Of a stretch of 64,000 bases of DNA, positions 2,648-57,495 are shown one piece after another; within the stretch, counting starts at the first letter, position 1; each line of letters begins with the position of its first letter. A program made the position numbers and the translations under genes. The DNA is from Dendronalium phyllosphericum CENA369 (lineage in GTDB: Bacteria; Cyanobacteriota; Cyanobacteriia; Cyanobacteriales; Nostocaceae), in the NCBI RefSeq assembly GCF_016056275.1, contig NZ_JAECZA010000002.1, positions 3,133-67,132 on the forward strand. The letters are read 5' to 3'. A model generated the notes under the pieces. That model did no database searches and was not told where the DNA came from. It saw only the letters and a list, made by a program, of their open reading frames with translations.

Positions 2648-2908
2648 GCGATCGCCAAAATAACAAATGAGTTCGCCGAAATAACAAATGCGTTCGCCGA
2701 AATAACAAATGGGTTCGCCAAAATAGCAAATGCAATCGCCGAAATAGCAAATGAGTTCGCAGAAATAACAAATGCGATCGCCGAAATAACAAATGCGATC
2801 GCAGAAATAACAAATGCGTTCGCCAAAATAGCAAATGAGTTCGCAGAAATAACAAATGCAATCGCCGAAATAACAAATGCAATCGCCGAAATAACAAATG
2901 CAATCGCT
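2648..2908 (+). repeat. 21-bp tandem array (12 copies) with heptapeptide coding potential
   Basis: Twelve complete 21-bp units plus a 9-base partial copy. The best consensus unit starts with the HIP1 octamer GCGATCGC and continues CGAAATAACAAAT. On the + strand an ATG at 2633 opens a 111-codon frame reading A-I/F-A-E/K-I-T/A-N repeatedly to 2968. Two frames on the - strand are also free of stops because the unit lacks stops in them. No convincing ribosome-binding site precedes 2633, so I list it as a repeat rather than a gene. Ile at positions 2 and 5 gives a 3-4 spacing compatible with a coiled coil if it is translated. Confidence 0.85.
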
Positions 2909-3037: not shown

Positions 3038-3742
3038 TCAGCTATTGTTCAATTGCTGAACAAACGCTTGATGTTCATCTGAAGCTAGCCCTTTTTGCAA
3101 TACTGCCAACACCTGTTGCATATTTCCCGCAACTAATGCTGAGACATCCAGCCACAATCCTGGAAATACTTGACTTTGAATTATCCCTGACGCATCTGGT
3201 GAGAGCGCTACATATTCACCATCCTGCAAGCTGAACCAACTCACAGTACTTTCAAAAACCTGCCAAACAATATATTCCTGGATGCCATTGCGACGGTAGG
3301 CGCGTTTTTTCTCGTGTAAATCTTTGCTAGCACTACTTGCGGCAACTTCCGCTACTAATTCTGGCGCACCTTCTACGTAACCATCAACACCGATATAAGA
3401 CAATCCGCCACAAGCTGCATCGATTAATAAAATGGCATCAGGCTGGGGTTCGTTATCTAAATCTAACCGCACAGTTGGATTATCACCTAATCTGACACCA
3501 GGCGTTGCAATTTTATAAGACCACAACCAGCCCATTAAATTACCATGCGGTTCGGCGTGGGGTTCAAAGCGCAAAGGTGATGCCACGTAAACGACTCCTT
3601 CAATCAGTTCGGCTTTCTTGAGATTAGGCATGGCATTGTAGCGACGCTCAAATTCCGGACGCGTGAGGCGATCGCCACTTTCAAGAGGCGGAATATATGA
3701 AGGATTGCTTGGAGTCGAATGTTGTGGGGAGGTGTTAACCAC
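3038..3742 (-). CDS. Uma2-family (DUF820) putative restriction endonuclease-like protein
   Basis: This 234-residue protein has the Uma2 layout: an N-terminal 'LTRPEFERRY ... AELIEGVVY' segment, a central PDAILLID motif (catalytic-type PD), ELVAEVAASS for the ExK-like strand, then YRRNGIQEYIVW. The fold belongs to the PD-(D/E)XK nuclease superfamily. Uma2 genes are highly expanded in cyanobacteria and mostly of unknown function; some are thought to be remnants of mobile or addiction modules. The start is GTG at 3742. The second acidic/lysine catalytic pair is weak (EVA rather than ExK), so nuclease activity is uncertain. It stands alone, transcribed opposite to its neighbours. Confidence 0.85.
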   Translation of the reverse strand: MVNTSPQHSTPSNPSYIPPLESGDRLTRPEFERRYNAMPNLKKAELIEGVVYVASPLRFEPHAEPHGNLMGWLWSYKIATPGVRLGDNPTVRLDLDNEPQPDAILLIDAACGGLSYIGVDGYVEGAPELVAEVAASSASKDLHEKKRAYRRNGIQEYIVWQVFESTVSWFSLQDGEYVALSPDASGIIQSQVFPGLWLDVSALVAGNMQQVLAVLQKGLASDEHQAFVQQLNNS

Positions 3743-53431: not shown

Positions 53432-53556
53432 AGTTATACCAGACATCTCCAGAATGATGTAAGGGCGTTCGCTCTTAGCGTTCTCGTAGAGTACGGCCGT
53501 TCGCCCCTACTTCGGGCAATGCAGAATTAACGATCGCTACTATGTTTATTATTAAT
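53432..53556. repeat. Imperfect hairpin-type intergenic repeat
   Basis: Between about 53450 and 53510, GTAAGGGCG and CGCCCCTAC form the outer arms of an imperfect inverted repeat around GTTCTCGTAGAGTACGGCCG. This is the GGGGCGAACGGCCG type of dispersed cyanobacterial hairpin. Confidence 0.45.
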
Positions 53557-53737
53557 GCATCGGCTTGCATTGTAAATGCATCAGCTTGCATTGTGAATGC
53601 ATCGGCTTACATTGTGAATGCATCGGCTTGCATTGTGAATGCGTCGGCTTGCATTATTAATGCATTGGCTTACATTGTGAATGCGTCGGCTTGCATTATT
53701 AATGCATTGGCTTACATTGTGAATGCATCTTTATTTG
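53557..53737 (+). repeat. Second 21-bp tandem array (8 copies) with heptapeptide coding potential
   Basis: Eight complete 21-bp units (consensus GCATCGGCTTGCATTGTGAAT) plus a partial copy. An ATG at 53542 opens 111 codons to 53877 reading A-S-A-C/Y-I-V-N repeatedly. The frame then runs through unrelated sequence and overlaps the 3' end of nifJ on the other strand. No clear ribosome-binding site is present. The unit length and peptide pattern match the array at 2648. Confidence 0.85.
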
Positions 53738-53826
53738 TTATATGGTGTCCGGTAAATCACTTAAAATTAAAAATTCTCCGCCTCCCTGGGTCTCCCCATC
53801 TCCGCGTCAGTCTAAATGATAAGTCT

Positions 53827-56800
53827 TTAACCGGATACGATATTAGAGTTGCTTTCAGGTATTTTACGCTCTGCTAAATATTGATACATCCGCCAGCGCG
53901 CATCTACTTCTGCTTGCGCTTGTCCTAGTAAGTGTTTGGCTAGTTCGGGTTTGCTCTTAGCAAGCATTTTGAAGCGATTTTCTTGATACATTGATTGCTC
54001 TACTAATTGTGTAGGCGATCGCATATCCAATTGCAAGGGATTTTTACCCTGTTTTTGTAATTCTGGATTGTGACGATACAGCAACCAACGACCTGATTCT
54101 ACCAACGATTTTTGATGATTCATGCCTGTGGTCATATTAATGCCGTGGGCTATGCAATGGCTGTAAGCAATAATTAATGATGGGCCATCGTAAGCTTCTG
54201 CTTCTAAAAATGCCTTCAAAGTATGCTCATCCCTTGCACCCATAGCTACACTCGCTACGTAGACATTACCGTAGGTCATGGCAATCAAACCTAAGTCTTT
54301 TTTCGGCGCAGGCTTACCACTGGCGGCAAATTTTGCCACTGCTGCTCGTGGGGTGGCTTTGGAAGATTGACCGCCTGTGTTAGAATATACTTCTGTATCC
54401 ATGACTAAGATGTTGACATTGCGACCGCTGGCTAGCACATGGTCGATACCGCCAAAGTCAATGTCATAAGCCCAACCATCACCGCCAACAATCCAAACGC
54501 TTTTTCTTACTAAGTAATCAGCAACACTTAGGAGTTGTTTGACTTTTGTCAGTTGTCCGTTGTCAGTAGTCAGTTGTCCACTAACCACTGACCACTGACT
54601 ACTAACAATTTCTTGCAGCTTTTGTTGTAACAGCGCTACTTTTTCCCGTTGTTCCCAAATATCAGCCTCAGATTTTTGTTCGGCGTTGAGTATCGCGCGA
54701 ACAAGGTTCTCATCTATTTCACCACTCAACTGTTGCAGTAATTCTGTGGCGAATTCTGTTTGTTTATCCAGCGACAGGCGGAAGCCGAAACCGAATTCGG
54801 CGTTATCTTCAAATAAACTATTCGACCACGCCGGGCCGCGTCCTTGGGAGTTCGTCGTCCAAGGAGTCGTGGGGAGATTACCGCCGTAGATTGAAGAACA
54901 ACCTGTAGCGTTGGCAATTACGGAGCGATCGCCAAATAATTGTGTTAATAATTTTAAATAAGGTGTCTCACCACAACCCGCACAAGCACCAGAGAATTCA
55001 AATAAAGGTTCTTGCAGTTGTTGTTGGCGAATTTGATTTAATTTCAACTGCCGTCGGTCGGGATTAGGTAAATTTAAAAAGAAATCCCAGTTTTTCCGCT
55101 CTTGTTCGCGCAAAGGTAACTGCTGTGCCATATTAATTGCTTTGCGCGATGGCTCAGATTTATCTTTGGCAGGACAAATATTTACACAGATGGTACATCC
55201 CGTACAGTCTTCTGGAGCAACTTGAATGGTAAATTTTTGATTGGCAAAGTCTTTATCTTTGGCATCAATTGATTTAAAGGTTGACGGTGCATTAACTAAT
55301 TCATTCGGTTGATAAGCTTTGGCGCGGATGGCACTGTGAGGACAAATCATCACGCACTTACCACACTGCACGCAGACATCCGGCTCCCACACAGGTATCT
55401 CTTCAGCGACATTGCGTTTTTCCCACTTAGCTGTACCTGTAGGAAAAGTACCATCAGCGGGTAATGCACTAACAGGCAGTTCATCACCTTCCCACACCAT
55501 GATGCGTCCGAGAACTTCTCGAACAAATTCCGGCGCATTGTTGGAAATAGCAGCTTGTTTTTGGATAGCGCTGCTAATTTGACTTGGGACATCTACTTTA
55601 TGCAAGTTGTCTAAAGTATTGTCTACAGCTTGCAAATTCATGCGGACAACTTCCGCGCCTTTCTTACCGTAAGTCTTTTCAATTGCCTGTTTGATTTTAG
55701 CGATCGCTTCTTCTTGGGGCAAGACCCCCGCTAAGGCAAAGAAACACACTTGCATAATCGTATTAATGCGTCCGCCCATGCCACTGTCGCGGGCAACTTG
55801 GCTAGCATTGATAACGTAAAACTTCAAATGTTTATCAATGATTTGCTGCTGCACATTCAAAGGAAGATATTCCCAAACACTATCCGCATCATAGGGACTA
55901 TTAAGTAATAAAGTCCCCCCAGGAATCGCAGCTTTGAGAACATCAATTTTTTCTAAAAATCCCCAGTGATGGCAACCAATAAAGTTAGCTTGGTCTATTA
56001 AGTAAGTCGAACGAATTGGTTGCGGCCCAAAGCGGAGGTGTGAGACAGTAATCGAGCCAGATTTTTTCGAGTCGTAGACAAAGTAACCTTGGGCGTAGTT
56101 GTCAGTTTCTTCACCAATAATTTTGATTGAGTTTTTGTTCGCCCCGACAGTGCCATCAGAACCTAAGCCGTAGAACATGGCGCGAACAACGTTATCGGGT
56201 TCAGTGGAGAAGTTAGCATCAAAATTCAGAGATGTGTGACTAACATCGTCATGAATACCAATAGTAAAGTGATTTTTCGGCTGTGCCTGGGCAAGATTGT
56301 CGAAAATTCCCTTCACCATCGCTGGCGTAAATTCTTTAGAAGAAAGACCGTAGCGACCACCAACGATTTTAGGAGACGCGGAGAATCTATTAAAAACATT
56401 CCCCGCGTCCCCGCATCCCCGTGTCCCCGCGTCCTCTCCCCACGCTTCATGAATTGCCGCTACCACATCCAAATACAAAGGCTCCCCAGCGCTACCTGGT
56501 TCTTTGGTGCGGTCGAGAACTGCGATCGCTTTTACACTGTTTGGTAATACTGCGACAAATCTTTGCACATCAAAGGGGCGGTAGAGTCGCACTTTCACAA
56601 CTCCCACTTTTTCACCACGGGCGTTGAGATAATCTACGGTTTCATGTACGGTTTCGCAGCCAGAACCCATGAGAACGATGATGCGATCGGCATCGCTAGC
56701 GCCGTGGTATTCATAAATTTGATAATGCCTTCCCGTGAGTTCGCCAAATTTATCCATATTGCGCTGGACAATTTCGGGACAAGCGTTGTAGTAAGGGTTA

Positions 56801-57495
56801 GCGCCTTCACGGGCTTGGAAGTAGACATCGGGGTTTTGGGCTGTACCGCGTAATACTGGGCGGTCTGGGGTCAAGGCGCGATCGCGGTGTTCTATTATGA
56901 GGTGGTCGGGAATGAGCGATCGCAATTCTTCATCCGACAACAGCTTGACTTTTTGCACTTCATGAGATGTCCGAAAACCATCAAAGAAGTGCATAAATGA
57001 TACTCGTGCTTCTAGAGTCGCCGCATGAGCAATAAGCGCAAAATCTTGACTTTCCTGCACCGAAGCCGAACACAGCAGGGCAAAGCCAGTGGCACGAGCT
57101 GCCATCACATCGCTATGGTCACCAAAAATTGACAGGGCGTGAGTAGCTAGAGAACGTGCGGCAACGTGAACTACAGCGCTAGTTAATTCACCAGCAATTT
57201 TGTAGAGATTGGGTATCATCAACAACAGCCCCTGAGATGCCGTGAAGGTAGTACTCAGAGAACCTGTTTGTAACGCCCCATGCACAGCCCCAGCAGCTCC
57301 GCCTTCGCTCTGCATCTGCACAACACTGGGAATTGTACCCCAGAGGTTGGGACGATTTTCTGCTGACCAAGCATCTGCCCATTCACCCATTGCTGAAGAG
57401 GGGGTGATGGGATAAATAGCGATTACCTCATTCAATTTGTAAGCCACACGGGCGACAGCTTCATTGCCGTCAATGGTTGCAAATGTTTTGTTCAT
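53827..57495 (-). CDS. nifJ: Pyruvate:ferredoxin (flavodoxin) oxidoreductase
   Basis: 1222 residues; ATG 57495 with GGGAG upstream. The N-terminal pyruvate-binding domain (1-~230) has IYPITPSSAMGEWAD. Domain II (~260-400) has RLYRPFDVQRF. The gamma/EKR part has FVYDSKKSGS and CHHWGF. Two [4Fe-4S] clusters are bound by CVQCGKCVMICP and CTGCTICVNICP. The C-terminal TPP domain has GACAGCGETP, NATGCSSIYG and GGDGWAYDIDFGGIDHVLASG. It cleaves pyruvate to acetyl-CoA and CO2, reducing ferredoxin or flavodoxin. Two extra segments are encoded by repeats: EDAGTRGCGDAGNV (from 56400-56441) and a VSSQWSVVSGQLTTDNGQL-type stretch (from 54547-54606). The frame is intact. No nif genes lie nearby, so a fermentative or general role is possible. 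Confidence 0.95.
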   Translation of the reverse strand: MNKTFATIDGNEAVARVAYKLNEVIAIYPITPSSAMGEWADAWSAENRPNLWGTIPSVVQMQSEGGAAGAVHGALQTGSLSTTFTASQGLLLMIPNLYKIAGELTSAVVHVAARSLATHALSIFGDHSDVMAARATGFALLCSASVQESQDFALIAHAATLEARVSFMHFFDGFRTSHEVQKVKLLSDEELRSLIPDHLIIEHRDRALTPDRPVLRGTAQNPDVYFQAREGANPYYNACPEIVQRNMDKFGELTGRHYQIYEYHGASDADRIIVLMGSGCETVHETVDYLNARGEKVGVVKVRLYRPFDVQRFVAVLPNSVKAIAVLDRTKEPGSAGEPLYLDVVAAIHEAWGEDAGTRGCGDAGNVFNRFSASPKIVGGRYGLSSKEFTPAMVKGIFDNLAQAQPKNHFTIGIHDDVSHTSLNFDANFSTEPDNVVRAMFYGLGSDGTVGANKNSIKIIGEETDNYAQGYFVYDSKKSGSITVSHLRFGPQPIRSTYLIDQANFIGCHHWGFLEKIDVLKAAIPGGTLLLNSPYDADSVWEYLPLNVQQQIIDKHLKFYVINASQVARDSGMGGRINTIMQVCFFALAGVLPQEEAIAKIKQAIEKTYGKKGAEVVRMNLQAVDNTLDNLHKVDVPSQISSAIQKQAAISNNAPEFVREVLGRIMVWEGDELPVSALPADGTFPTGTAKWEKRNVAEEIPVWEPDVCVQCGKCVMICPHSAIRAKAYQPNELVNAPSTFKSIDAKDKDFANQKFTIQVAPEDCTGCTICVNICPAKDKSEPSRKAINMAQQLPLREQERKNWDFFLNLPNPDRRQLKLNQIRQQQLQEPLFEFSGACAGCGETPYLKLLTQLFGDRSVIANATGCSSIYGGNLPTTPWTTNSQGRGPAWSNSLFEDNAEFGFGFRLSLDKQTEFATELLQQLSGEIDENLVRAILNAEQKSEADIWEQREKVALLQQKLQEIVSSQWSVVSGQLTTDNGQLTKVKQLLSVADYLVRKSVWIVGGDGWAYDIDFGGIDHVLASGRNVNILVMDTEVYSNTGGQSSKATPRAAVAKFAASGKPAPKKDLGLIAMTYGNVYVASVAMGARDEHTLKAFLEAEAYDGPSLIIAYSHCIAHGINMTTGMNHQKSLVESGRWLLYRHNPELQKQGKNPLQLDMRSPTQLVEQSMYQENRFKMLAKSKPELAKHLLGQAQAEVDARWRMYQYLAERKIPESNSNIVSG
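54547..54606. repeat. Short tandem repeat (CAGTTGT/CCACTGA type) inside nifJ
   Basis: Tandem 7-bp units (GTCAGTT, GTCCGTT, GTCAGTA, CCACTGA) lie in the linker before the thiamine-diphosphate domain. They are translated in frame as Ser/Val/Gln/Thr-rich sequence. Confidence 0.7.
56400..56441. repeat. GC-rich short tandem repeat (CCCCGCGT) inside nifJ
   Basis: Units CCCCGCGTC, CCCCGCATC, CCCCGTGTC, CCCCGCGTC form the complement of the GACGCGGGGACACGG tract at about 11592-11621. They are translated in frame near the end of domain II. Confidence 0.7.

Follow-up and report, generated by a model that had tools for sequence, protein, structure and literature searches.

A solo 21-bp tandem array beside nifJ shares its unit type with arrays upstream of genes for small basic proteins in filamentous cyanobacteria

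The window, which is the whole 64-kb stretch of DNA that was analysed, represents contig C110 of an 8.4-Mb genome (G000), which to judge from the named relatives of its genes belongs to a Nostocaceae-type cyanobacterium. As the earlier note had reported, it contains 21-bp tandem arrays, which were confirmed at 53554-53729 (8.4 copies) and at 2648-2907 (12.4 copies). Both are related to arrays found upstream of genes for two families of small proteins, designated here A and B, and arrays without such a gene nearby are referred to as solo arrays. The features of interest are the following.

2648..2907, no strand: second array, 21 bp x 12.4 of GCGATCGCCGAAATAACAAAT; solo; its type (reverse complement) is present upstream of a family-B gene on contig C134
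51236..53431, + strand: left neighbour, Wzc/CpsD-like chain-length/tyrosine-kinase protein (GNVR + AAA_31), ending 122 bp before the array at 53554
53542..53877, + strand: spurious 111-aa ORF across the array at 53554-53729, reading ASACIVN repeats; coding tests negative
53554..53729, no strand: the array under study, 21 bp x 8.4 of AATGCATCGGCTTGCATTGTG, TRF score 261, 84% matches; solo array of family-A unit type; non-coding
53827..57495, - strand: right neighbour, pyruvate:ferredoxin (flavodoxin) oxidoreductase NifJ, convergent

Because the Wzc/CpsD-like gene and nifJ are convergent, the 53554 array is located 3' of both, and the 2648 array likewise lies between convergent genes, coding for a Roc-COR leucine-rich-repeat protein and an Uma2 protein. 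The Roc-COR (Roco) protein with leucine-rich repeats occupies 119-2575 and adjoins the array. To the right of the 53554 array, an imperfect inverted repeat, GTGTCCGGTAAATCACTT ... AAGTCTTTAACCGGATACG, is visible by eye at 53745-53850, below the threshold of the repeat finder. No family-A or family-B gene is present in the window. The 53554 array is 82% identical to the array upstream of a family-A gene on contig C229 of the same genome, and the same unit also precedes the family-A gene on C67, while the 2648 array gives an 83% match to the array upstream of the family-B gene on C134. Rfam covariance models gave no match to the 53554 array up to E 1. The 21-bp units are directly contiguous without unique spacers, and the CRISPR feature of identical repeats with unique spacers is therefore lacking. 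Among 29 related stretches of the NifJ region (L040-L068) the array is absent from all, but the genes next to NifJ seem to be arranged differently in them, so this says little about an ancestral array.

The units of the two arrays differ at 12 of the 21 positions in the best register, in agreement with the earlier description of their DNA as unrelated, and one frame of each does read A-x-A-x-I-x-N as described. This open frame in both arrays is the point in favour of tandem heptapeptides under coding constraint, as the earlier note had suggested. A total of 44 arrays with at least five units (406 units) were read in this frame. Variability at codon positions 1, 2 and 3 was 0.133, 0.255 and 0.113 (bootstrap intervals 0.10-0.16, 0.22-0.29 and 0.09-0.14), and the third position being the lowest argues against coding constraint. 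Single-base codon changes between adjacent copies were non-synonymous in 451 cases and synonymous in 73, contradicting the claim that most differences between copies fall where the residue is variable or the codons are synonymous; in the 53554 array alone, several copy differences are synonymous (GTA/GTG, TCG/TCA, GCA/GCG). The pattern is kept in three of the 44 consensus units, a stop interrupts the frame in 12 arrays, and each of the six frames is closed in some of them. Other 21-bp arrays of the genome encode unrelated peptides, an observation that the earlier note had named as refuting its proposal, and the Pfam search with the 111-aa ORF gave nothing below E 0.07. The arrays of family-A genes have 2.55 open frames of six versus 2.62 in column-permuted control units (no excess). 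Among orthologous arrays, some have a period of 20 or 41 bp, incompatible with a reading frame, and the unit is not fixed in orientation with respect to its linked gene (51 versus 15). The window array and its kin thus encode no selected heptapeptide and are non-coding; the heptapeptide reading is refuted for the array family and retains virtually no probability. What stands of the earlier suggestion is a common 21-bp system, as each of the two arrays is a solo copy of a gene-linked type.

The unit of the 53554 array forms at least 12 dispersed arrays in its own genome and was found in 12 of 59 relatives, often several times per genome, and that of the 2648 array occurs at no fewer than seven places in its own genome. 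This recurrence shows the two arrays to be more than chance. A total of 52 loci of the 53554 unit were examined with about 3 kb on each side, and beside eight of these arrays a cluster of ORFs was found that represents one protein of about 124 aa (family A). It is present in 12 of 60 genomes searched, with one or two intact copies each. The genomes examined first contain 12 intact full-length copies, every one with a 21-bp-type array on the 5' side, and a GTDB genome scan yielded 80 family-A loci from Nostoc, Scytonema, Fischerella, Leptolyngbyaceae and others, of which 75 have an array within 1.5 kb upstream and one has an array downstream; the background in other flanking DNA is 10 such arrays per 216 kb. 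The period is 21 bp in 69 and 20 bp in four of 73 arrays, and the median distance from the end of the array to ATG is 121 bp. The most distant family-A genes (in genomes G028 and G034) are without an array. In the window genome, both family-A genes and all six intact family-B genes are array-linked.

Conservation was compared across 45 family-A loci, with values of 10.1 for the 100 bp before the array (8.1 when shuffled), 32.5 for the gap between array and ORF (9.2), 55.9 for the ORF and 9.3 after the gene (7.7). The gap contains a conserved block, TTACTG.TAg.TTTtt.GTtg.AATGGG.ACATTAAATaTatA, and no neighbour gene is common to more than 15 of the 80 loci. Since conservation stops at the start of the array and at the end of the ORF, and the neighbours are not common, the unit consists of array, gap and ORF. 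The 21-bp units of family A bear an imperfect palindrome.

Family B (pattern MARxKRxS..., ...KYGKxSxEYxMAGG...), a distant relative of family A, was reached via a weak match in genome G021, and its profile retrieves family-A members at E 4e-4 to 2e-3 (small set). Judging from these sequence matches, homology between A and B is likely but remote. Family B is present in 13 of the 60 genomes in 2-17 copies each. Arrays with a period of 21, 42 or 63 bp were detected upstream of 27 of the 30 first copies and downstream of two, and in two of the three misses a repeat is visible by eye. Among further copies outside this sample, 20 of 22 carry an array, one of the misses being cut off by the end of the contig. 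The association extends to another order, Leptolyngbyales, in which Kovacikia has a family-B gene with an array. The family-B units, which are not palindromic, differ in sequence between clades, and orthologues across genera have the same units. One family-B gene (L247, G006 C1:656629) has two upstream arrays, of which the one farther from the gene has a family-A-like unit; its genome is without family A.

Proteins A and B are small and basic, with tails of the type KKKSxRKRPxRKK, and AF2 models (moderate confidence) consist of long helices with disordered basic tails. Neither family gave a significant Pfam match (DUF6658 at 0.048, below the cut-off, for A), and for A no natural relative was found in NCBIfam, PHROGs or PDB. 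The best match of the PDB sequence search with both families was a designed helical protein (E 5e-4), again with no natural relative; Foldseek on both models gave no hit below E 5, and VIA-align detected no natural relative. No match to a DNA-binding fold was obtained for either. The models are compatible with a DNA-binding dimer or filament. PADLOC gave nothing for the A and B proteins up to E 1, and no match to a toxin model of the ToxN/Q type was detected in Pfam or PADLOC. A transposase match was absent for family A (Y1/HUH; Pfam, NCBIfam and PHROGs) and for family B (Pfam and NCBIfam), and no Rep or Par relatives were found among the proteins. A plasmid collection contained one record for each family, and a phage collection, searched with family B only, gave nothing. 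Neither the database searches nor the open-access literature yielded an account of 21-bp arrays in front of genes of this kind. A and B are two undescribed families of small basic proteins without a database family.

Nearly all of the 52 loci of the 53554 unit are intergenic. The nearest genes around solo arrays are on the same strand in 28 cases, convergent in 11 and divergent in five, and this absence of promoter bias indicates that the solo arrays are not ordinary operators. An HMM search within 3 kb on either side detected no hidden A or B gene beside them. Solo units differ from the gene arrays of their own genome by 4.79 mismatches per 21 and from those of other genomes by 6.13 (p=1e-5), and from each other by 4.44 within a genome versus 5.75 between genomes (permutation p=5e-4); the exception is G035, with solo units unlike its own gene arrays. 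The family-B type linked to the gene on C300 also has solo relatives. Solo arrays of family-A type were present in eight of 14 relatives with A or B genes versus two of 45 without (p=5e-5, not corrected for relatedness), a test weakened by gene and repeats being shared by descent within one lineage. The linkage between array and gene in two related families, and the match between solo and gene-linked unit types, are thus observed.

We favour, at a little below even confidence, the reading that the 53554 array is a non-coding solo copy of the array of a module, carrying phased DNA sites that would be bound by the linked small protein or by a dedicated partner or another regulator. The proposed module would consist of an array with a 21-bp (or 42- or 63-bp) period, about 120 bp with the conserved block, and the gene for a small, presumably helical protein with a basic C-terminal tail. 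As 21 bp corresponds to two turns of B-DNA, each unit would present its site on the same side of the helix, and the constancy of the period while the unit sequence changes between paralogues and species suggests sites on one DNA face. The linked protein or its dedicated partner might bind the array cooperatively and control its own gene, and the solo arrays may be further binding sites, perhaps for the organisation of nucleoid or chromosome, or decoys. The palindromic look of family-A units would fit a dimer site, but does not extend to family B as a whole. Points against the favoured reading are that neither protein matches a DNA-binding fold, that the solo units of G035 are unlike its own gene arrays, that the most distant family-A genes lack an array, and that solo arrays show no promoter bias. 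In a more far-reaching version, many paralogous pairs exist, each formed by a small helical basic protein and the 21-bp-phased array before its gene that it recognises, the solo arrays serve as docking sites in trans (like a centromere or nucleoid organiser), and protein and unit co-diverge with the two-turn spacing fixed; this we consider possible but doubtful.

Binding of the gene-linked arrays, as enhancers or binding sites, by another regulator or nucleoid protein, with solo arrays as extra sites, would account for the conserved promoter-proximal block between array and ORF and for a period of two helical turns whatever the unit. The unit type, however, is specific to each paralogue clade, a pattern more in keeping with a cognate factor than with a single global regulator, and this alternative is regarded as unlikely. 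Neutral minisatellites, generated at 21 bp by slippage or strand switching, tolerated intergenically and hitch-hiking with genes, would be expected to vary in copy number, to form higher-order repeats of 42 and 63 bp and to be homogeneous within a genome, all of which is seen, and other 21-bp arrays do exist without A or B genes. Such an origin is nevertheless distinctly unlikely in view of the upstream position (75 of 80 versus one of 80 downstream, and 20 of 22 out of sample) and of the fixed period despite unrelated sequences across genera and orders.

If, in the manner of type III toxin-antitoxin systems (ToxIN-like), the array were transcribed into a repeat RNA partnering the small protein, the layout would be the same, with repeats immediately before the gene for a small protein and a gene-specific unit. 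Family-A arrays fold somewhat better than arrays with permuted units (z about -1.8 and -2.2), but those of family B fold little better (z -0.8 and -1.0); moreover, there is no conserved sequence before the array, where a promoter would lie, no terminator-like site was detected in the one gap scanned, the orientation of the unit flips, the proteins have no significant Pfam and no PADLOC match, and solo arrays lack a gene. The modest structure in A and weak structure in B, together with the absence of a conserved pre-array region and of a terminator-like site, make the repeat RNA less likely, and we give it no better than an outside chance. An array of RNA hairpins kept by covariation, suggested by the consensus units, did not hold within arrays or in family B: the pair 5/14 is almost independent within arrays (C-A 64 and T-G 46 versus T-A 127 and C-G 80; stratified z 2.1 in the same unit and 2.3 at lag 2).

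Iteron arrays of plasmid origins, and parC with ParR, consist of tandem units upstream of a gene whose protein binds them and autoregulates. The present arrays are similar in being near-integrally helix-phased and upstream of a gene, but A and B have no Rep, ParA/ParM or ParR relative, are mostly chromosomal, and form many paralogous pairs per genome with dispersed solo arrays. In heterocystous cyanobacteria, STRR are heptanucleotides and LTRR are long CRISPR-like repeats; these are likewise tandem and in the same organisms, but the period here is 21 bp and no rise was observed at lag 14 in the family-A gene arrays. The type III systems (ToxIN, CptIN, TenpIN) also place short tandem repeats immediately before the gene for a small protein, but differ in the toxin model, the pre-array promoter region and the geneless solo arrays considered above. 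BOX elements and MITEs with internal repeats are similarly dispersed and intergenic with a variable number of internal units, but the present arrays have no consistent terminal inverted repeats and do have a linked gene family. The REP/BIME-RAYT (TnpA-REP) system resembles the module in that a gene is tied to its own repeat type, with type-specific pairing and dispersed orphan copies. REP elements are described in PMC3733652 as GTAG/CGTC-tagged palindromes of 20-40 bp, whereas the A/B arrays are tandem at 21 bp, variable and often non-palindromic, and the proteins have no transposase match. As type III toxin-antitoxin, REP-RAYT, iteron/partition and CRISPR systems each fail in a defining feature, the array-gene module is rated as a new kind.

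Across many kinds of filamentous cyanobacteria, two nameless protein families, with as many as 17 gene copies in one genome, are thus each tied to an array of 21-bp period. Through this link, arrays with the look of junk minisatellites become a protein-DNA (or protein-RNA) system that can be tested, and the orphan proteins gain a first clue to their function. If A and B are plain autorepressors, the module would be a variant of operator arrays; should each protein instead act in trans by binding its own units, bacterial chromosomes would hold a phased repeat code of a new kind, in which one cell has many pairs distinct from one another.

A MITE with an internal array was considered, but flank comparison and a search for terminal inverted repeats gave no general termini; such repeats are absent in most loci, and a few solo subtypes have common flank motifs. 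One solo subtype (L076-L079 and L114; G000 C143, C310, C129 and C172, and G006), with units AATGCATCCCGATGCAATGCC, has common DNA at the left end (AAATTTGCCAGTAC.CTGCAATG), and some of its members, possibly mobile, also have the flank CTTAGTACAG / CTGTACTAAG. Among many solo arrays, the flank CTACGGTGTACACACAAG(T)TGCT on the left is common to L083, L097, L099, L100, L102, L107 and L117, and its complement recurs near a family-B gene (L321, near 3357-3497). At the right ends, arrays of different genera (e.g. L086, L095, L098, L103, L104 and L119) terminate in ...TTGCAAAAAT or a close sequence followed by A/T-rich DNA, as if the end of the last unit were fixed. The census of 21-bp arrays covered 461 kb of G000 and 400 kb of G003. 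Arrays of other 21-bp units without an A or B gene nearby were seen at L277:3945-4163, L295:105-298 and L312:9281-9400, and may be solo copies of types with a gene elsewhere. At L074, L075, L104, L105, L122, L132, L163, L164 and L166, the 21-bp unit alternates with a second unit of 20 or 21 bp that includes GGCGGCC (or a similar G+C-rich sequence), giving a period of 41 or 42 bp, and this variant occurs in both gene-linked and solo arrays.
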